Assembly (NCBI GenBank): GCA_018105865.1
Contig: CM030842.1
Coordinates: 16,963,917-17,027,916, forward strand
Reading direction: 5' to 3'
DNA from: Metaphire vulgaris
Taxonomy: Eukaryota; Annelida; Clitellata; Crassiclitellata; Megascolecidae
DNA: 64,000 bases
In this document: positions 10,893 to 60,665 of the stretch, piece by piece
Layout of the letters: each line of letters begins with the position of its first letter
Position numbering within the stretch: position 1 is the stretch's first letter
The notes under the pieces: model-generated
Database searches by the model: none
What the model saw: only the letters and a program-made list of their open reading frames with translations
What the model was told of the DNA's origin: nothing
Program-made: the position numbers and the translations under genes

Positions 10893-10900
10893 TATAAATA
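10893..10900 (+). promoter_or_regulatory. Candidate TATA box of the lysenin-like gene
   Basis: TATAAATA lies 102 bases before the ATG at 11002, a normal distance for a TATA box plus a 5' untranslated region. No other promoter element is obvious. Confidence 0.4.
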
Positions 10901-11001: not shown

Positions 11002-13070
11002 ATGGAAGAAGAATGCAAAAGAGAGAAAACTCACGAACAGACTTCCGAATTTTCCAAATTGCGCGGTACGTCTTATGTTTATTTTCTAATCTTGTCCCAC
11101 AGGCGAGAAAACTGTAAGATATTTTAAAGAAATCTCTAATTTAGTTATAACTGTGCAGTCACAGAATGGCTTTATGAAGACTATTGGCTATATTTCATTC
11201 GAATATGAACTTTCCATTAAAATGTGCTACTATGTTGCAATGCCTGACCTGGTTTATCCACCATGGACTGTCACACGTTTGTCCGGCCGGATGCCATGGA
11301 GTTGACCTGCATCTTGAGAATAATAGTGATTGGCGTGCCATCGGCTGATGCTACTGAGCATTATGAAATGGCGCTATAGAAGTTTAAGATAATATCACGT
11401 TAGTTTTTAAAAAACCTATATCAGATCAAGGCAAATTATTTACTTTAACAATTTCTTGGGTTGGTCTAGAAAGAGACAGCAAGTATGAAAGCTAAAAGTG
11501 AAACGACATTAATGAGACGCAAATCAAAGAATAATATTAAACGAGCAGGCATAATTGTTGCCTGCCTTTTTAGCGCCCAGCACCGAAACCCTCAAGGAAA
11601 TAAAGGTGAGGAGTCGGGGCCAGTGGAAGCGAGTCTTCGACGAGGAAAACCACACGGATCTTCCGATAACACACTGTACCAAGTCCACGTACGGACTGAA
11701 GACGAGCGAGCAGGACGAGACTACGATAGTGGCCAAGCACAACACGCGAGAGGGAATCTCCAAGGGAGCGAAACTCAACGTCAAATCGATTGACGTTGAA
11801 TTCAAGGCGAACGTCGAGTACAGGTTCCTTCTTTTCAGACGATAAATCAGTGTCAGTTTTTGTGTTTTTAAAATCATTGTGTTCTCAATTGTTTTTATAA
11901 TTTTATTACAATCACTGGTATGTACTATGTGGTCTTGTATGTAGCATGTACTATGGACAAAAACCAATTTGCATACTGCATAGGTATTTTTTAAAATGCT
12001 GCCTGCCTTGCAGTCGAAAGTCTTGCCCCCTCTCTGGAAAACAATCAAATGACGGTCCTGCCTGAGTTCCCGACCGTTGTGTTTTGCTGCAGGAAAATTT
12101 CTGTCGGTCCCATTGACCATCGCTTCATAAACCTTTCGAAGAAAGAACTCTTCTCATCAAGAAATCCTATAGTGAAATCCTTTCTATATGTTCTGCCATC
12201 TGCAAATCTTGTTATCATGTTATCATTCTCCATAGAAATACTTTGCTGCGACTGCCTATACCTGGACCTACAACCTTGACCACCACGGACTACGGATTAA
12301 TATGGACTATGGATTCTGCCCAGTTTGAGCGCTCGTGAATAAACTGGTGCGCCGCGCCAGGCTTTCGAGCAGCGCTATAGAAATTTCGTGTTTTTACTTT
12401 ACTTTACAGCTACGAGCGGGCGAACACCGTACGCCAGGTGCGTGGTAAGGAGATCCAGCGCTCACGGGAGGAGACGACGACCTTCACCGTGCCGCCGAGG
12501 ACGCGCCTGGTACGGTGGCAGTACGTCGCCGACATCGTCGGCAACGAGTACGACTTCCACCACACGCTTACGACGACGGACGACGCCGTCCCGGTGGACT
12601 GCGAGGTGACGGCAACGGTCGAGCACAAGAGGGAGATAGTGTTCGGGTCGACCCCGGTTCGAATCCGACACAAGGACGACGGGCGCTACGTGACGATCGT
12701 CACCAGGGACCGCTGGCCGGCGGCGACGCTGGGTCACAGCGACCGCTTCCAGTTCGTCCTGTGCGAGTCGGGCGAAGGAAAGGAGAGCGTCAAGATCAGG
12801 TCGCTGTCGACTCCCTGTCCCGGGTACGAATACCTGTCCGCCTCGGCGTTCGAATGGGTCTACGGCGGCCGGAACAGGGATTTCGACGACGCCAAAAGTC
12901 TGTACTGGTTCCTCAGCAAGAAGCCACCGCTGTACGACGGAGACGTCGTCACCTTTCGTAACCTGAATTACGAAAATAAGTACCTGTGCTACAGGAAGAA
13001 GAGTCGGAAATCAACCGACGTGTACTGTCTCACCAGGAAGGAGGAACAATGGATCCTGGAAGCGGTTTAA
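11002..13070 (+). CDS. Lysenin-like pore-forming protein (aerolysin-type), three exons
   Basis: Three exons, 11002-11065, 11574-11823 and 12410-13070, join in consistent phase to 324 residues, close to the 297 of earthworm lysenin. Donors are GTACGTC and GTTCCTT; acceptors are CTTTTTAG and ACTTTACAG. The third exon shows lysenin-family hallmarks in order: VPPRTRLVRWQ (residues 132-142), RWPAATLGH (206-214), GYEY (243-246), GDVVTF (282-287), VYCL (309-312) and WILE near the end. In lysenin, an aerolysin-like N-terminal half forms a nine-subunit beta-barrel pore and a C-terminal beta-trefoil domain binds sphingomyelin in target membranes. The frame is intact with no stop. There is no signal peptide, as in lysenin, which is released from coelomic cells. 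Exon 1 (21 residues, starting MEEECKREKT) is the least certain part because it rests on splice phase and the TATA box only. Activity is inferred, not shown. Confidence 0.87.
12361..12409 (+). repeat. SINE-like 3' tail forming the last intron's acceptor
   Basis: The block CAGCGCTATAGAAATTT followed by TTTTTACTTTACTTTACAG is the same kind of tail found at about 18 places in the window (GCGCTATAGAAG or GCGCTATATAAAT). Here the pyrimidine-rich end runs straight into the AG used by exon 3 of the lysenin-like gene. Confidence 0.6.
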
Positions 13071-13136: not shown

Positions 13137-13305
13137 CAATGTTTATTCTAGCCACCTTGACATTGGGGTGGGGGAGTTTTACATGTTTGGAGGATATGGT
13201 TTGTCTGCCCATAAACCTTGACGCAACATATAGAAATTTTGTTTGGGGGAATTTTCAAACTGGGGGGGGGCGAATCTCCTCCAAACAGGTCTAGAATAAA
13301 CACTG
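13137..13305. mobile_element. hAT-like MITE (CAGTGTTTATTCTAG family), copy 2
   Basis: A 169-bp element starting 67 bases after the stop codon of the lysenin-like gene. Ends are CAATGTTTATTCTAG and CTAGAATAAACACTG; flanks GCATGGAA and GCGTGGAA are an 8-bp duplication with one mismatch. Its right end carries AATAAA at 13295-13300, a possible poly(A) signal for that gene. Confidence 0.85.
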
Positions 13306-15237: not shown

Positions 15238-15335
15238 GAACATTAATTGATCAAAAATTGAATCATTTTCTGTGTAACTATGAATTTCACTGACTGTTTC
15301 TTTTTCATTATGAGAAATTAGTTTAACTTTTTTAT

Positions 15336-16367
<1,032 letters not shown>

Positions 16368-16598: not shown

Positions 16599-17442
16599 CT
16601 AACGACGAAAAGGCGCAAATCTTTTGAAAAGCGCATTGAGGCCGAATTCCGGGCGATCGAAGGGGGTCGAGGTCTCACCGTCTTCTGCTTGGTCGCAGTA
16701 GGGGGGAGGAACAAACACGGAGGGGTCGGAAATCGAAAGAGTGATGTTAGTGTACAAATCTTCGAAGGTAAACGTCTTCCCCGAGCTGACATACCGAGCT
16801 TGAAGAGCAGAGCCAACCGGAATGCAGTTGTCGGGGCTGAGGATGACCTGTGACCCTTCCACGGTTTCAGGACCGACGGACAAATAGCTCCACAGCTGGA
16901 CGGCGAGAGCTCCGGGTGGAGCGCCGAGACTGAACGATCCTTCGAGAGTCCCGTTGGAATAAAAGCAACACTGGTCAGGATCGAGAGGGCACCAAGGCAA
17001 AAGCAGGGTTCTACAACGTTTCGTCGCCCTCACGAAGGTGTATAGCGTGGCGCCAGACTTATCGCAGAGAAGAATTTTCGAGGTGGCGACGTTGTCTTCT
17101 GTGCTGTCGTCAGCGGTTCGTTTGTTCGCCTGGTCACGGTAGAAGATCCCTTCGGAAAAGTGGACCTTTTTTCCACTTTTCCCTTCGACCGTTGTCCTTT
17201 CGTAAAAGTTTGCTGTCAATGTGTCGGGCAAGCAGCAACCTTTTACGCCGTTGACACCGGCCTTGTTTTCGTCATCGCGGTCTTTCCAGAGCGAGAGCAT
17301 GTCGATGGCGGACATCTTAGCTGACCAAACAGATGATGAACGGTGCTTGTTGTAGTCGCTCTGTTGAAACGCTGCGCTGTCGACGACTCCACCAACGACC
17401 ACGACGAACGCAAGCAGAAACAAGGCATTACGAAAAGAAGCC

Positions 17443-17444
<2 letters not shown>
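16599..17444 (-). CDS. Ependymin-related secreted glycoprotein
   Basis: A single exon of 281 codons. Residues 1-24 form a signal peptide (hydrophobic FLLAFVVVVGGVV). The body carries the ependymin pattern: CCLPDTLTANFYE at 70-82, GIFYRDQANKR at 99-109, the central cysteines with LPWCPLDPDQCC at 149-160, and FTFEDLYTNITL...DPSVFVPPPYC ending at Cys250. Nine cysteines are at 70, 71, 127, 144, 152, 159, 160, 207 and 250; N-glycosylation sites are NGT (164) and NIT (233). Ependymin-related proteins are secreted, bind calcium and hydrophobic ligands in a beta-sandwich, and are abundant in marine invertebrates. A 31-residue tail after the domain (acidic, then LFKRFAPFRR) is unusual. The start is clear because the ATG directly follows a GA tract with no earlier in-frame Met that fits a signal peptide. 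Confidence 0.88.

Positions 17445-17446
<2 letters not shown>

Positions 17447-17512
<66 letters not shown>
17447..17512. repeat. (CT)n tract abutting the ependymin-related start codon
   Basis: About 33 CT units on the plus strand (GA on the coding strand), ending 2 bases from the ATG at 17444. It would lie in the 5' untranslated region or core promoter of the gene. Confidence 0.95.
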
Positions 17513-21182: not shown

Positions 21183-22273
21183 TTCACAGTGCTTTTAAAG
21201 AAAGTTGGTGGGGTGCAATGATTTTCTAGGAAGTTGGTGAGGGGATGAAATAAAATCCAGAAAAAGTTGACAAGCAAAATTAAAGGTCATGAACAGTGTT
21301 TTGCCCAGCAAGTGTAAATAAAACTTCTCAAAAAAGACTGACAAGCAAAATAGGTCATCAGCTCTGTTTTACACACAGATAGGCCTACCCGGTGCACACG
21401 TAGCTGCATATATAGCAACTCGGACCGGTAGACCCCCAAAACGTTGACAAGCAAAAAAGAGGCTCGGTGGGGGATGCATCCACAGTCAGTCGAGATGGAT
21501 TAAGATACCAAAAGAAAGCAGCAAATTTTCCGAGAGAAGAAATCTTAAAGTAGCAAATTGCAAATTGTTTCAAAAGATATCGGCTAAGTAAGCGATATTA
21601 TAGAAAGCAGCATAAATAAATACTGAAAGTTTGCATTCTCAAATAGGCATATTAATTTATTTTTGTCGCTCTCTTTATAAGGCAAAGAGTGCGGTAAAGT
21701 GGCTAAGAGCTAATGGAGTGATCTATTTTTATAGTGATGGCGATAATAATATTGCGGTAAATTGGGGTAAAATCCGGATTTTTCTAAATAAACATTTGGT
21801 TTCGACGACTTCGGCGTTCCATAGTCATGGGTCTAAGTGCACTTTGTGAATTCATGTTTACTGTCGTTTCATTTGTTGTTTACTTGACTTTTAATTATAA
21901 TATTCTATTTAATTCGTCGATTACGGGTGCAATTTAATGGAATTATTGGTAATTACACATTAAATTTGTGATTTTTTGAAAATCGATGCGAAACGTGACT
22001 ATTAAAAGTTCTAAATTCTAATTATTTATATATCGCCATACATAATTGTGCGTTGCAGATAATGTAAATAGTAGTGATAATAATTATGATACTAATAACA
22101 AAGTCTAGAATGTATAAGAGCCACTGTAACGTGTTAAAATCAAATCTATAAACTTTTATAATGTTAAGGCAAAATAGATGGTAGTAGAGAACTAGAGAGA
22201 CGAAGGACCGTTGCATTGCAGTACATACAATTTGTGACTGAGGTTGCTTATTGCAAGATTGTTACCGTTTCAG
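21183..22273. other. Intergenic DNA upstream of the TPR gene
   Basis: No exon could be assigned, although the first exon of the TPR gene probably lies here or further upstream. AT-rich; words like GACAAGCAAAA in 21265-21455 belong to a degraded transposon. Confidence 0.4.
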
Positions 22274-25169
22274 GGCAGCGAATGTAAGAAAGAGGGAGAA
22301 AAATGCTTGAAGGAGGAAAAGTACTTTGAGGCCATGTTGCACTTCACAAAAGGAATCAAATATGATCCTCACAACCCAAACATCTACTTTGGGCGCTCCG
22401 AAGCATTCCTTAGAATCCAGCAATTTTTCTATGCCATTGATGATGCAAAGGCTGTTATTCGAATGCTTCCTAAATGGCCTAAGGTATCTTTCAAGAATTA
22501 GCATTTTATGACATTTTTGTTATCTATGATGCAATATCTTGTTACTTAACTGCGTTTAGAATTAATTGCCTTCAGTAATAATTATACGGTCTTGTAATGA
22601 TCTTGTAATGATATTGTTGAAGTGTGATCTTTATGACTAATTCTTTCATTCTTTGTATTTGTTAAAAGCCTCTGCTGTTTATCTGCTTACTTTGCAGGGC
22701 TATTTGAGAAAAGCTGAAGCTGAAAGCACAGCCGAATGTTTTTCCGAAGCAGTGGCCACACTTAAGGTTCAGTCTTAATCAATGACAATTTGGATGATAG
22801 CTAATCTACACACACACACACACACAAACGCACACACTCATAACACATTTATATGTATTTTATTTGAGTATGTATGATTAAGTTCGGTTGCAAGGCAGTT
22901 ATAGTCAGGCGTTGCAAATTCAAAAGTAGCATCGTGTTGATGAATAGAATGTATGTTCATCTCCAGCACTAACATTGCAGTGCACACTTGCTACTTACGC
23001 AGAATGTGTTAGGGTGCTAAGTGATACATTTGCACCGGGTGTGTGTACGCATTGATAAGCATAAATACAATATTAATGATGCATCTTGTGTAATTGAGAA
23101 GTTCACGCATGCGTGCCTGTGTGCTCACAGTATCTTGCCTTGCTTTATTGTATCGGAGTTGATTTTTTGCTTTGGCTCTGTGTAGAAAGGACTAGAGGAA
23201 AATCCCGACGACACAAAACTCCAGACGGAACTCGAGAAGGCGAGAGAAAGCTGGAAAAAGCAACGAAAGAGTAAGCAAGAGCAGACTTTTCGGGCATAGT
23301 CAATTCAATTGAGTAGTTTTTCTCTCTCACCGTAATTGTCCTTGATTATTGGGAAGACATTGAGGTGTCTCGGGCAGAAGAAATGCAATTGCTTGCTACT
23401 AACTAACCAGCACTTCTGAGTAGTACATGAGACTTTGTGTAAGTAGGTCAAGTCAATTAATTAAAATAGGTACATAAGGTAGGCTGAACTATGTTTTCAG
23501 ATTATGGTTCTCACACAGGGCAGACCATACTGAACCACATTAAGCATTGTTGTTATTATTATTATTATTACTCATCTGTCAACAAAAGTGAAACAATATT
23601 AGTTCATTAAATAGAAATGTTTGGCATCGACTGAATCACTTAGCGAGTAAATAGCGACCACCGACTGATGCCAAGTGCATTACTAAAATTGTGCTAGAGA
23701 AGCTCAGTAATAGTAATAAATAGAAGGCATGCATTGCTAAAGAAACGCAGGATACAAGCAGTGTCATTTAGTTATTATCTGTTCTACATTGCAGGCATGA
23801 AACAATATTGTATTCCTAGATTGCATAACTGGAAGTGATAATACTTGTAATGTTTAGGTGAAAATCGCATGCCTTGGTTTGGGATATCTCTTGGCTTGAT
23901 TGTTGGCATGATCATAATTGTTCTTGATGAGAAGATTGCAAGGAAACCTATTTTTCAGGTGAGCTCAGAGTTATGGAATCAGTGCACAAGGTAGCATTTT
24001 GTTGATGAATAGAATAGTGTGTACGCATTGATAAGCATATCAGGACCGAAAAATCAGGCCGGCTTACTGGTTTTGACGATGGGAATTACGATTAAAATCA
24101 AGGAGTGACCATCGACTGAATGACAAGACCAAAGATCATTGCCAAAATGGCGCTATAGGAGTTCATTGATGACGATTACCTGCCCATATGACATAATGTA
24201 ACAGTCCGCATTGTTTTTTGCTGGGAACTTCATAATGGAATGCATTTATCTTGTGGCAATATTATTATATTTGTTCCATAGGATGATTATGTTCGCACTA
24301 CAAGCCTTGTTGCCTTGGTTTCCATCTGCTATGCTCTTGCCAGACTGTACAGGTTAGTTTCCAGAACAATCTAGATGAAATTATACAACCACAGAGGATG
24401 ACATTTAATTGTTTTTGCATAATATAATTAATTAATTATGAAATCATTAGGTTAAAAATTATGTTGTTTCTGGTGCACAACAAATTTGTAGAATTTAAAA
24501 ATAATTTTACTGAACCACAGGTTATCTACAGACATTTTTAGTAATTATTATTTAGTATTTTATTTATTTTTATTTTAGTTTATTATTAATACAATGGTTC
24601 TAAACAATAGCTCCATAAAATATTGTTTCAGTAATTTTAAAAATGATAATGGAGTTTATTTGGTAAATCTTCTCTTAGGTATTTTATTCAAGCGCAAAGG
24701 ACAAGTCTCATCGAGCCTCCACCAGATCTGCTGGGAGGTGAGTGAAACATTTCAATTGAGTTTTTCTTTATTTGATGAATTCTTTTTGATTAAACTTTAA
24801 ATTGCATTCAGTTGTTGCAGCCAAGGCAACTTTTGTCCACAGTTTTAAGCTTTCTGCCAAACTTTGTGCACTCGCGTTTGGCAAATTCATATACGTGACC
24901 GCAACCAGAATATTTTAATCAGTTGAGTTACATGGTACAGTTATAATTTAAATATTAGGCAATATGCCATAATTCATTTAGTGGGTTCACAAAACATTTA
25001 CTAAGGTCTAAGGTGAATAAAAATAATAACGGGCTTAATTACATGCAAAGATGTTGCCAATCTAGATATCCTTAGCTGAAGGATATTATCTTTGTTTTCA
25101 GACGGTTCAAGTGTACTAGAAGGTGCAAATTCAACTGCACAAAATTCAGAAAATTCAAAGAAGCGGTAG
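22274..25169 (+). CDS. TPR protein with two C-terminal membrane segments (5' exon missing)
   Basis: Seven exons join in consistent phase: 22274-22483, 22698-22766, 23186-23270, 23858-23958, 24282-24352, 24679-24737 and 25102-25169, giving 220 residues to the stop. The first exon starts at an acceptor, so at least one upstream exon is missing. Exons 1-3 hold tetratricopeptide helices like those of STI1/HOP co-chaperones (KKEGEKCLKEEKYFEAMLHF, IYFGRSEAFLRIQQFFYAI, GYLRKAEAESTAECFSEAV). Exon 4 has a membrane segment (FGISLGLIVGMIIIVLD) and exon 5 a second (TTSLVALVSICYALARLY). The product is thus likely a membrane-anchored TPR adaptor, plausibly binding Hsp70/Hsp90; the chaperone role is inference. 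A poly(A) signal AATAAA is at 25503-25508. Each intron begins GT and ends AG. Confidence 0.8.
23507..23571 (+). mobile_element. LINE tail variant with (TTA)n in a TPR-gene downstream intron
   Basis: TGGTTCTCACACAGGGCAG and CATACTGAACCACATTAAG form the same TGGTT/AACCA stem as the CR1-type tails and end in a short ATT run. The same variant recurs at 40611-40676. It lies in the intron between 23270 and 23858. Confidence 0.65.
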
Positions 25170-26075: not shown

Positions 26076-27586
26076 TCATAAATCATAACTCTCTGCGATG
26101 CAGTTGAGGAAGTTTGAGAAGATGTCCTGTCCTCTGAAGGAATTACGGAAAACAAATTCATAGAAATAAGAAGGAAGCAAGGCTCGACTGGTGCCGCTCT
26201 GTTTAACCAATCTGCGCTTTAGACGCATCCACATGTTTTTAATGGTCTGAAGATGAATGTCCCGATTGTTTCGGTTGACGAAGTTACTCTTGTCGATCAC
26301 GCTGTGTCTGTAGATGCCGTGCTCAATGCTATCAATGTTAGCATAAGCAGCCCATTCATAAGAAACAATATGAGATCCAGGCAAGACGTGCTTTACGATT
26401 TCCGCCTGTAGAGTTTCTGCTGTCCTGTCGGGAACTTCAACAAGGAAGCACTTTCCAGAGCCTCTTTCTACGCCACCAAGCAACCAGGGTCCCTCATTCC
26501 CATCATAGTATTTTTCACGAAAGTACATACTCTCATCGATTTCTACGAAAATCGCTTCACCATTTTCATCCTGTCCTCCAATTTGAAGGGCATGACGTTC
26601 GACAAAATACGCGCATTCATTACGACAGAAATTGCACCATTCTACAGCTGAGTGCGCACTGATACTTAATTCACGGACTATTACAGTCTGAGGCAGGTCG
26701 GTTGACCAGAAATAGATGATTCCTAATATCTGATCAAGTCTGAGTCCACTGTGTATAAAGAAGCTTCCAAGGCGTACACTCAGACGAATTGAACAAGAAC
26801 GACACGACCACCTCCTCTTATCTCCTCCCTGTTGGTAGGATATTAAAGAACATGGCTTTTTACATGTTGGGCATTTCATTGTATTCTTGATCAATCGACG
26901 TTTAGCACACCATCTGAGACAGTCATCTGGTGTTGAAAGTGCTGACATAAGTGACAAAAAGTTCCAGGTCTCAGTTGTCATCTGAGTTTCATCAAGAACT
27001 TCTGCAACCGGTACTATTTCTTTCGGAGCTCGCCAGCTTCCACTCGTATCCAGTAACTGCTGTTATTCAAATTGCAAAATTCATATAGTTTCAAAATGAA
27101 ACTTAAATTGATTACTTAATCCATGTTACTATGAAAAATGTGTGACAAAACATTCTTATTTGAAACAAAGATGCCAATAGTGTATTTCATGCATCACTCA
27201 ATAATAACGCCACTTAATAATGTTTTGTCCATATCTAATATTTGCGGTACACATGTGCTCTTAGTAATCATTCAACACAATATATGTGAGTTACGCTTAC
27301 TAACCTAAAGGCAAGAATGTAAGCGATCATTAGTTCCTTAAAGTAAACTTCCAATGTGTTAAAAAATCTCTCGATTGCTCTATCCAGTGTGATCCACTGA
27401 CATTTGGCAGTTATGAGAAATCATAAATAACGCAGGGTAGGGAGTGGCGATATGTAAATTCTAAATATAAATGCTATGGGGACAATTAAGCAAACTCACT
27501 TGGTCAGTCATTTTAAAATGAAATTGATTTTCAAATCGATCGACAGTTAAATGCATTGGACCTCGTAGATCAACTGCAAACATCCG
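26076..27586 (-). CDS. Merlin-type (IS1595/ISXO2-like) transposase gene, spliced, active site altered
   Basis: The main exon (26076-27059) encodes 327 residues; an upstream exon (27500-27586, 29 codons) joins it in phase 0 via GTGAGT and AATAACAG. The protein has an N-terminal zinc ribbon (CPTC...CRSC) and the Merlin/IS1595 DDE-type core, recognisable by VEIDES, LLGGVERGSGKCFLVEVPDR and a GTSRALLPSYFYEFVFR-type end. The first catalytic aspartate is present in VEIDES. Where the family has S-D-x-W the protein reads SYEW, and where it has T-I-E-x-x-W it reads TIKNMW, so the second aspartate and the final glutamate are replaced by Y and K. The full-length frame without stops and the added exon favour a host gene over a working transposon. 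No terminal inverted repeats were seen. The 5' end may be incomplete: a possible extra start exon (MVFSETRNK) at about 27626-27652 would need a 39-base intron. Confidence 0.8.
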
Positions 27587-58095: not shown

Positions 58096-60467
58096 TATGT
58101 GTGTGCATGTATGTGTGTGTGTCCTGATGCTATTGTATATTCTGGTGGAACCCTAACTAGGCCAATGGAACCGTTTGCACTCAGAGGTATCTCTTAAAAC
58201 TACAGCCTTTAAGCAATTATGTCCGAGGCTGACATTTAAAAGTAAGATTTCTAATTATGTGAAGCTATCGAACGTGCGATATCACTTGACGGACAGACAG
58301 ACATTCAAAGGCGCCTCGCAGCCAATAATAGCCTCTCCAGACAATACAGCACAGCAGTTGACGACAAGACCTCTGCAATTGAATACAACAGCACTGAACA
58401 ACATATCTCGTTGCTTTGGCTACTTTTTCCTCTTGTCTTCTTCTTCTTCCTCCTCCTCCTCCTCCTTCTTCTTCTTCTTCTTCCTCCTCTTCTCCTCCTC
58501 GAAAAAGCACTTTCTTCGGCTTCATAGCCGTGTTATAACTCTCGCCTTTCTTCGAAGAACGCTTTAATAATTTAGCGTTTTCACTCGATGTTATTATTTC
58601 GGCTTTCCTTTTTGACCTTCGGCTTAAAGAATGCGTGGTCTTCAAACGACACGCTCCGAAACCTTTCATTTGCAAAACACAGACCATCGTCAGAAATTCA
58701 CCGTCGAAACCAGGATGTCTGCGGTTGTTGGTTGGGGAGTTGGTCGAACCTCGGGTTGACCCGGGACCATGCAGTATTTCTAGCGACCATATTTACTGCT
58801 CGGTCAAAACTCTCTCCAACTGTTTTCGAACCTCGAGTGTTAAAGTCACAATTGGTCAGCATTTTTAAAATTTTGACCTAAAACAGAAGTGGAAGGAACT
58901 CATTCAGACCCATCGTCCAACCCAATAGGGAAAGACGGAAGGAAAGAAAGAAGAGAGAAGACCTAAACATAGTATAATCGAGATGAAAATAATTAAATTC
59001 GAGGTACGTTAGAATAGTTTTCCTGTGATTTGGTCTTTTGGTTTCAAGGATCCTATTATCAACATAGCCAAACGAATAAAAAAAATGCATGTCCACAAAT
59101 TAAAAAAGCAGACTTATAAACCAAAAGGAATTATTGCAAATTTTTATGTCAATTGATGTTCGGCAAGAGAACCTCAAATCTGGAAACGTCTTCGAAAATA
59201 TTTCCGTTATCGATCTGCAGAAGCTCTAGAAGTCTGAATCCACGCATCCAGTGGCGTCCTTAGCACCCTAGGTACGCCCTCGCACAGCATCCGTGAGATC
59301 GAGACATATATAGGTAGGCCTAAAGGTCGAAATTATGGATGGGGGGAGGGGAGTTTGATGCCCCATTGATTTTAAAAACAATCGGACGCTGAATGTATCG
59401 TTAACGTCATGACGGATGATGGCCAATTCTGACCTTTTGCTTCAGATAAACCAACGCATTCATAACCAGAGATCTTCATCGTGTTCATTGATATTGCCAC
59501 GAGGGGGAACGGGTGGCCAGGTACCCCCTTTCGGGGCCAGACTGGTCGTGAGTTTGGTGCAAAACCGATTGGAAAGTTTAATCAGTTATGGGTAGGATAG
59601 GGTGACTGCCGACGTGGTATCATATATAGTCGGTTAAAATGCTCCAAATCTCAAGGTTTGTATCGAATACTATCTTACGACGCAGGCTCCCCGAGCCCAC
59701 CCCCACGGTCTCATTTGTAGTCGAATATGACCAAGTTGGTCTGCAGAAATGAGTGTGTCCTATTCTTGAGTCCTGGCTACGCCACTGTATGCATGTGCAC
59801 CCCCAGTCTTCGATACGTTAGCAACCGTTGCCTGATATGCGTTGAGGCCGATAGATGTAGCGCTGTTCGCCGAGAAATAGCGCTATAAGAATTCCCGATA
59901 CGGACGCCGCATCACGAACGGCAAATAAACCAAACGATGAAAGTGAAACCGGAAGAACGGAGAGCAGCGGGCGCTATATAAATGTACTCTTCAGATGCGT
60001 GCGTGTGTTTCTTTGACTCTTTGTGTGCGCGGCTCTGTCTATCTGTGTGTCTGTCTGTTTGTCTGTTTGTCTGTCTGTCAGTCTGTCTAAGTGATGGAAC
60101 GTTGAAATTTTTCTCATCAACAATTTTATTAAAGAGTCAGGATTGGCGAAAACTGGTCTTCACTCGCATGCTAAGTGCGTCTTACTCTGGCTCGTCATGC
60201 GGGACACCTGACGCAATCTGCTTACTTACTTACCAACTGCAGTGTAAAAATGGCGGGCGCTGGCTGGAGGGAAGGCGGGAGGGGGGTGGGTAGGGTTGAC
60301 CGACCTTTTGAGCTTTGCGTTTGTCGGACCTTTGGTTCTGGTGGTAGATGCGACTGAAGTTGGAAACGATGACTGGAACTGGAAGGGCGATAACGAGGAC
60401 TCCACTCAGCGAACAGACTCCACCGACGATCTTTCCAGTCACGGTCCTTGGCACCATGTCACCGTAC
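52443..60467 (-). CDS. Kv4 (Shal) voltage-gated potassium channel, C-terminal part
   Basis: Four exons in gene order, 60305-60467, 55648-55836, 54771-54950 and 52443-52715, give the last 267 residues in consistent phase. The first starts inside the selectivity filter (intron in the Gly codon before YGDMVP, as in vertebrate KCND genes) and contains S6 with [16 protein letters not shown], including the PVP hinge, then [16 protein letters not shown]. The next gives [18 protein letters not shown] and [14 protein letters not shown]; the third EFVDVE, PSSHSP and KCCHKGRQ; the last KQSRSSLNA, all Kv4 landmarks. Kv4 channels carry the fast A-type current in neurons and muscle and associate with KChIP proteins through their N-terminus. 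That N-terminus, the T1 domain and S1-S5 are absent here and must lie beyond 64000. The introns hold many MITEs and microsatellites. Confidence 0.93.
52842..52920. mobile_element. TTAA-flanked mini-MITE (piggyBac-like), copy 3
   Basis: TTAA-CCCCTTAACCG at the left and CAGTTAAGGGG-TTAA at the right with the core AACTCAATGTAAAATGG. It is upstream, on the gene strand, of the last Kv4 exon. Confidence 0.85.
53180..53222. repeat. (CTGT)n then (CT)n repeat
   Basis: About eight CTGT units followed by CT units, with further CTGTCTCT-rich sequence to 53275; similar CTGT blocks occur at 54060-54190, 60020-60090 and 61865-61885. Confidence 0.9.
53484..53519. repeat. (TCC)n microsatellite
   Basis: Twelve TCC units in a Kv4 intron. 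Confidence 0.95.
55038..55262. mobile_element. hAT-like MITE (CAGTGGCGTAGCC family)
   Basis: A 225-bp element with ends CATTGGCGTAGCCACC and CCTGGCTACGCCACTG. Flanks TCTTCAGC and TCTTCAAC form an 8-bp duplication with one mismatch. The interior matches 8350-8560. Confidence 0.88.
55331..55386. repeat. (AAAG)n then (AATG)n tetranucleotide repeat
   Basis: Four AAAG units followed by about nine AATG units. Confidence 0.95.
55870..55952. mobile_element. TTAA-flanked mini-MITE (piggyBac-like), copy 4
   Basis: CCCCTTAACCGTG at the left (with TCAA instead of TTAA) and CCCAGTTAAGGGG-TTAA at the right; core AACTCAATGTAAAATGG. It lies 34 bases upstream, on the gene strand, of the Kv4 exon 55648-55836, close to its acceptor. 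Confidence 0.8.
56143..56183. repeat. (ATT)n microsatellite with adjoining reversed SINE-like tail
   Basis: About 13 ATT units; GATTTCTATAGCGCAATAAG follows at 56198, the inverted form of the GCGCTATAGAA tail. Confidence 0.9.
58041..58092. repeat. (TA)n dinucleotide repeat
   Basis: About 26 uninterrupted TA units. Confidence 0.95.
59249..59787. mobile_element. Probable hAT-like MITE (CAGTGGCGT ends)
   Basis: Begins CAGTGGCGTCCTTAGC and ends GTCCTGGCTACGCCACTG. Flanks CACGCATC and TATGCATG match poorly, so this may be two fused or overlapping copies. Confidence 0.45.
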
Positions 60468-60665
60468 CTGGAAAACACACACACACGCACACACGCATCA
60501 GTGGCAGCAGCGACCAACCAGATGACCGCAATCCTTATATATATGTTAAACGGATTTCAAGCTGGTCCCCAGGAAAATTTCGTCTTAAGTCTTTCCCTTT
60601 AGATATCCCCCAATTCCACCTTTCCTCCCCTGCAGAAGTAGCATCATCAGTATTACAGTATTATT

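Follow-up and report, generated by a model that had tools for sequence, protein, structure and literature searches.

A divergent, apparently intact lysenin-family gene with a changed first exon and altered lipid-site residues in the earthworm Metaphire vulgaris

Lysenin of the earthworm Eisenia fetida is used as a sphingomyelin probe and has also seen trials as a nanopore, and its pore-forming module lies within the aerolysin fold family (PMC3526787, PMC4865846). A 2026 review gives only E. fetida and E. andrei as representative species of lysenin (PMC13295531). In an annelid genome paper that compared Enchytraeus crypticus and E. fetida, lysenin was reported from E. fetida only (PMC8460440), and lysenin-like proteins of Dendrobaena veneta were detected by mass spectrometry (PMC6411149). 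The genome report of Amynthas corticis counted 111 matches for 15 defensive genes and named lysenin and fetidin among the known defensive genes (PMC7846840), so a megascolecid relative of lysenin may already be implied in print. The genome of Metaphire vulgaris, another megascolecid, was described as 728,570,957 bp overall, with 41 chromosomes that range from 11.0 to 50.2 Mb (PMC7666815). In this study, we analyzed a stretch of 64,000 nucleotides from contig 11 of this genome (CM030842.1, positions 16,963,917 to 17,027,916; hereafter the window), which carries a lysenin-like gene at 11002..13070 on the + strand. The words "lysenin", "toxin", "pore", "immun" and "fetidin" do not occur in the main text of the M. 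vulgaris genome paper (PMC7666815). In the parts of the literature on lysenin homologs that were covered, including that on Amynthas and Metaphire, neither this gene nor any lysenin sequence from a megascolecid was found described.

The gene encodes a divergent and apparently intact member of the lysenin family, as the initial annotation had proposed, and both sequence matches and structure comparison support this identity. Exon 3 matched the lysenin entries PDB 3zx7, 5gaq and 5ec5 at E = 9.7e-36 to 2.5e-35 (best score, 126.8 bits), and the first entry other than lysenin appeared only at E = 0.89. With an E-value of 9.7e-36, the likeness is not due to chance. Exon 2 aligned with positions 4-79 of the lysenin chain without gaps and in co-linear order (E = 0.038, not significant by itself). 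The same exon matched the N-terminal halves of paralogs in the genome at E between 5e-13 and 3e-9, and the paralog at 1.442 Mb of contig 6 matched lysenin over chain positions 12 to 296 at E = 2.2e-53. Because the paralogs match both exon 2 and the whole of lysenin, exon 2 can be taken as part of the lysenin pore module. No Pfam model was matched by exon 2, exon 3 or the database relatives P0004 and P0007. Each structure prediction used nine sequences. Lysenin filled the best 16 Foldseek rows, both with the exon-3 model and with a full-length relative as the query. The trefoil of the exon-3 model was well predicted and matched; the full fold, an aerolysin-type sheet plus beta-trefoil, was matched for the relative P0004 only. 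No other aerolysin-family structure was among the best 50 matches listed per structure search, a result that is silent on distant kinship.

The gene model consists of three exons on the + strand that join in frame to 975 nt and encode 324 amino acids; its coordinates and frame hold as first annotated. The TATA-box-like sequence TATAAATA (10893..10900, +) lies 109 bp 5' of the first ATG, whose positions -3 and +4 are A and G, respectively. Exon 1 (11002..11065, +) comprises 21 residues and one base, ending in phase 1. Its product is hydrophilic, with five K/R and six D/E, and has no signal peptide. In intron 1 (11066..11573, +, phase 1; GTACGT ... CCTGCCTTTTTAG), the acceptor is strong and the donor moderate (2.42). 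Donors were scored here with a simple frequency table made for the analysis, and acceptors were judged by eye. Exon 2 (11574..11823, +) is assigned by its lysenin alignment to the N-terminal half of the pore-forming module, including the equivalents of Trp20 and Lys21. The predicted intron 2 (11824..12409, +, phase 2) lies inside the predicted pore hairpin and ends in the strong acceptor TTTACTTTACTTTACAG. Exon 3 (12410..13070, +; stop codon TAA) encodes the remainder of the pore-forming module, followed by the beta-trefoil at the C terminus, as indicated by the lysenin match, the structural model, the fold match and the pocket residues. All five family landmarks named earlier were present at their expected places: RWPAATLGH (12711-12737), GYEY (12822-12833), GDVVTF (12939-12956), VYCL (13020-13031) and WILE (13050-13061). 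The G+C content at third codon positions (GC3) was 0.84 over the 219 open codons of exon 3 and 0.72 in exon 2; the overall G+C content of the two introns was 0.36 and 0.40, and that of the 3' flank was 0.44. For exon 1 the G+C content was 0.41, and composition gives it no coding support. A possible poly(A) signal, AATAAA (13295..13300, +), is weak evidence because it lies inside a stretch that is repeated elsewhere. This 3'-flank repeat (about 13137-13305) recurs at other places of the window, and copies of it also lie close to several paralogs of the family.

The family is well represented in M. vulgaris. Searching the assembly of 728,303,522 bases with exon 3 gave 15 matches, and 18 were found with a contig-33 paralog as the query. 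By position, these correspond to about 15 family loci: four on contig 6 (C6), three on contig 11 (C11), seven on contig 33 (C33) and one on contig 14. Several are incomplete or broken, such as L013 at C6:1.489 Mb, which runs in two frames, a copy with an inner TAG at C33:10.76 Mb, and fragmented copies on C33. A tree was built from 20 rows of trefoil halves, with the pieces at C33:10.719, 10.778 and 11.919 Mb excluded. The window copy was paired with the database relative P0001 (100/95), and the C33:8.311 Mb copy joined this pair next, weakly and on a long branch (82/83). The remaining three C33 copies of the tree grouped apart with P0005 and P0007 (100/100). Between the window copy and P0001, 10 of the 219 exon-3 residues differ, and all the changes are conservative (R/K, V/I, N/D, A/G and A/V only). 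Two C6 paralogs evolve fast under some constraint, since their nonsynonymous and synonymous divergences (dN and dS) are 0.17 and 0.32, respectively. The database relative P0012 scored 239 bits against lysenin, above the three Metaphire sequences tested (127-185 bits). The initial annotation had left it to the host species whether the gene extends the family beyond earthworms or adds a divergent annelid member with its gene structure. Because the host is M. vulgaris (Megascolecidae), only the latter stands: the family stays within earthworms, yet reaches outside the family of Eisenia. Haemoglobin linkers, which are not known outside annelids, had 8 matches in the assembly and none in 14 control genomes, those named being prokaryotes. 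Linker identity was 67 of 121 positions to Glossoscolex and 61 of 120 to Lumbricus, against 65 of 120 between these two worms, which would fit an earthworm. For mitochondrial COX1, a single weak match of 47 model positions turned up, on a nuclear contig.

The positions of the lysenin lipid site were taken from PMC3526787 and mapped by alignment in a table of 12 genome and 8 database rows, with P0009-P0013 not included. The window protein keeps the equivalents of Trp20, Lys21, Gln117, Ser227, Tyr233 and Tyr282, whereas Phe stands for Tyr24, Glu for Tyr26, Asp for both Glu128 and Lys185, and Phe for Gln229. Thus the phosphocholine pocket of sphingomyelin-specific lysenin is incomplete, with S227, Y233 and Y282 kept and Lys185 replaced by Asp, and the acyl-tail platform of Tyr24 and Tyr26 is absent. 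The exon-3 changes, including Asp at 185, are common to P0001. Asp185 is not unique to the window copy, because the copies at C11:16.866 and C33:10.761 Mb also have it. Lys185, Ser227, Tyr233 and Tyr282 are all kept by both C6 paralogs at 1.44-1.45 Mb. Near 10.7 Mb on C33, positions 24 and 26 are aromatic in the two copies where they are readable, and in three copies 233 and 282 are occupied by Phe or another residue; the copy at C33:8.311 Mb departs from this pattern. Retention of the two lipid sites of lysenin looks complementary in the family: the C6 and C11 copies that were read keep Trp20 and have Phe plus Glu or Asp at 24 and 26, and these C33 copies near 10.7 Mb keep aromatic 24 and 26 and change 233 and 282.

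The initial annotation could place no counterpart of the first exon. A counterpart does exist: at least four of nine paralogous loci have a phase-1 signal-peptide exon at the same place. The scan for leaders looked for phase-1 exons that run from an ATG to a donor and encode a hydrophobic core; it covered the window and, of the 14 other loci, nine. The four positive loci (C6:1.442, C6:1.449, C11:16.862 and C11:16.866 Mb) have such exons with donor scores of 3.2-4.3, located 0.4-1.9 kb upstream of the domain. The background of exons of this kind with a donor above 3 was four per 128 kb (both strands of the window). A phase-1 acceptor directly 5' of the lysenin domain was seen by eye in the window and in six of seven paralog contexts, L013 being unclear. 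In position and phase, exon 1 of the window gene corresponds to the signal-peptide exon that the four paralogs have, and the window copy appears to have replaced or lost that exon. A TATA-like box lies 86-89 bp 5' of the ATG in three of five paralog signal-peptide exons, and the distance for exon 1 is 109 bp. A leader candidate starting at 11512 was discarded, as its donor falls within exon 2 and is of no use to it. In 240 kb that include the family loci and the remainder of the window, nothing matched the promoter and exon 1.

Database relatives bear on the leader as well. P0004 carries a leader fused to the domain on a contig of 1,238 bases, whereas the genome separates the two by about 1.2 kb at L013 and 0.9 kb at L011 (C6:1.442 Mb); P0004 thus reads as a spliced form. 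The corresponding peptide at L013 shares 19 of its 20 residues with the start of P0004, and the donor behind it is weaker (-0.1). Nearly the same 20-residue leader-like peptide is found upstream of both L011 and L013, in a block common to both, so the P0004 leader is not cleanly tied to one locus: the exon-3 part of P0004 is closest to L013, which has no clear acceptor before its domain. L011 has two leader-like exons in tandem. P0010, P0011, P0012 and P0013 are further relatives. P0010 and P0011 start in a signal-peptide-like manner and P0012 does not, so the leader seems variable within the family. The numbering of lysenin puts the conserved Trp of the domain at residue 20. Lysenin is not known to have a signal peptide. 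One paper reports the removal of a signal peptide from Eisenia lysenin (PMC11077637).

The second intron sets the window gene apart from six of its paralogs. Its position is uninterrupted in these six (C6:1.442, C6:1.449, C11:16.862, C11:16.866, C33:10.749 and C33:8.311 Mb), which makes it simpler to suppose that the lineage of the window copy gained the intron. The relative P0001 seems to have intron 2 too, since it continues into sequence like the end of this intron.

We consider it probable that the gene encodes an intact, probably leaderless pore former of the lysenin family, of about 324 residues and with altered lipid recognition, which most likely works like lysenin. The soluble monomer would bind phospholipid head groups through the C-terminal beta-trefoil and an adjoining site of the N-terminal module, and monomers would then assemble as a ring on the target membrane. 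The long hairpin, formed by the end of exon 2 and the start of exon 3, would unfurl to give a beta-barrel pore. Because the gene, unlike at least four of its paralogs, would start with a short hydrophilic exon rather than a signal-peptide exon, synthesis is probably cytosolic, and release might follow cell breakage or a non-classical route; a role in defense may be supposed. The Asp for the phosphate-binding Lys185, the Phe for Gln229 and the Phe and Glu for Tyr24 and Tyr26 predict a lipid preference other than strict sphingomyelin. Several observations weigh against this reading. We found no transcript of this gene; P0001 is on a contig that looks genomic and reaches into intron 2. The donor of intron 2, CAG/GTTCCT, is weak (-2.66); an alternative end of exon 2 at 11817 has an even weaker donor (-4.35) and would give 322 amino acids. 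For exon 2 alone, an unrelated match ranks ahead of lysenin, at E = 0.012. The window protein is modeled in its trefoil only, as the predicted local distance difference test (pLDDT) score is below 50 over most of residues 1-71 in the pore-module part. The junction of exons 2 and 3 adds 4-6 hairpin residues relative to the paralogs; the paralogs likewise vary in hairpin length. No convincing leader candidate was seen at L016, L018, L019 and L020 (four of the nine loci, all on C33), and the search for a signal-peptide-like phase-1 exon (donor above -2) upstream of exon 2, which found none, covered the window only. Finally, the combination of TATA box, Kozak context and phase-1 exon with a donor above 2.3, a threshold placed just under the score of exon 1 itself, occurs at two sites in 128 kb (both window strands), including exon 1. 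Exon 1 is therefore likely, not certain.

Some of these observations would suit other explanations. The gene might be an ordinary secreted paralog whose signal-peptide exon lies further upstream or uses an unusual donor, the hydrophilic exon being a chance open stretch. The four paralogs with signal-peptide exons, the leader of P0004, the leader-like starts of P0010 and P0011 and the only moderate donor of exon 1 argue for this, as does the donor score of only -0.1 at the leader-like exon of L013 that matches P0004. However, the introns of the paralogs measure about 0.4-1.9 kb and the upstream part of the window has no leader exon above the donor limit, a TATA box precedes the hydrophilic exon, whose ATG lies in a favorable context, and relatives without a leader-like start exist, as in P0012. 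We regard a secreted paralog as unlikely. The weak donor and the changed first exon could also mark a decaying copy that has lost its leader and no longer makes the full protein, and other copies in the genome are visibly broken. Against decay stands an exon 3 that is open over its whole length at high GC3, and ten conservative differences out of ten from P0001 are hardly expected of neutral change; we think this quite improbable. If pore formation had been lost, leaving a trefoil protein that binds lipids or sugars, this would explain why the trefoil half is best kept, why an extra intron interrupts a lengthened hairpin and why the sphingomyelin-tail platform is gone. Yet the equivalents of Trp20 and Lys21 are kept, and the Trp20Ala change is reported to leave lysenin unable to oligomerise (PMC3526787). 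Hairpin length varies among the paralogs too. We likewise doubt that the pore has been lost. Going on with an intact, leaderless pore former, we speculate that the pheretimoid lysenins are split into secreted members and cytosolic pore formers with a hydrophilic exon, and that the window copy, with its Asp for Lys185 and without the acyl-tail platform, may have a target lipid different from sphingomyelin, such as an ethanolamine sphingolipid of invertebrates. This is a tentative proposal, which we would hold possible rather than expect.

Other features were seen in the window. Roughly 3.5 kb beyond the 3' end of the lysenin-family gene is an open reading frame for an Ependymin-related protein (16602-17447, -; Pfam PF00811, E 5.8e-8). 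A reverse transcriptase piece (15327-15830, +; PF00078, under the cut-off) and an open frame of 328 codons with an ISXO2-like transposase domain (26079-27062, -; PF12762, E 4.9e-12) were also present. Exon-like frames of a TPR protein (22238-22498, +; TPR models under their cut-offs) and of an ion channel (60233-60556, -; PF00520) complete the set.

The swapped first exon and the altered lipid pocket, as predicted from the gene sequence, are the parts of most interest. About 15 megascolecid loci, some coding for a signal peptide and others not, and differing from each other in the lipid pocket, offer natural variants for studying how lysenins choose their lipids and how the worm avoids harming itself. 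Compared with lysenin of E. fetida (PDB 3zx7, 3zxd, 3zxg, 5ec5 and 5gaq), the window protein is likewise co-linear over exons 2 and 3 and has the beta-trefoil; its hairpin is 4-6 residues longer at the exon junction, and it has an additional N-terminal exon product. Where lysenin has Lys185, the gate residue Gln229, Tyr24/Tyr26 and Glu128, the window protein has Asp, Phe, Phe/Glu and Asp, respectively. Its kinship to the aerolysin-like beta-pore-forming proteins runs through lysenin only, with no direct sequence match. The signal-peptide-bearing paralogs (C6:1.442, C6:1.449, C11:16.862 and C11:16.866 Mb) share with the window gene the same domain and the same phase-1 first intron, and two of the four share its contig. 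They differ in that their first exon is a signal peptide and that they have no second intron; at position 185, both C6 copies have K, and the C11 copies have S and D.
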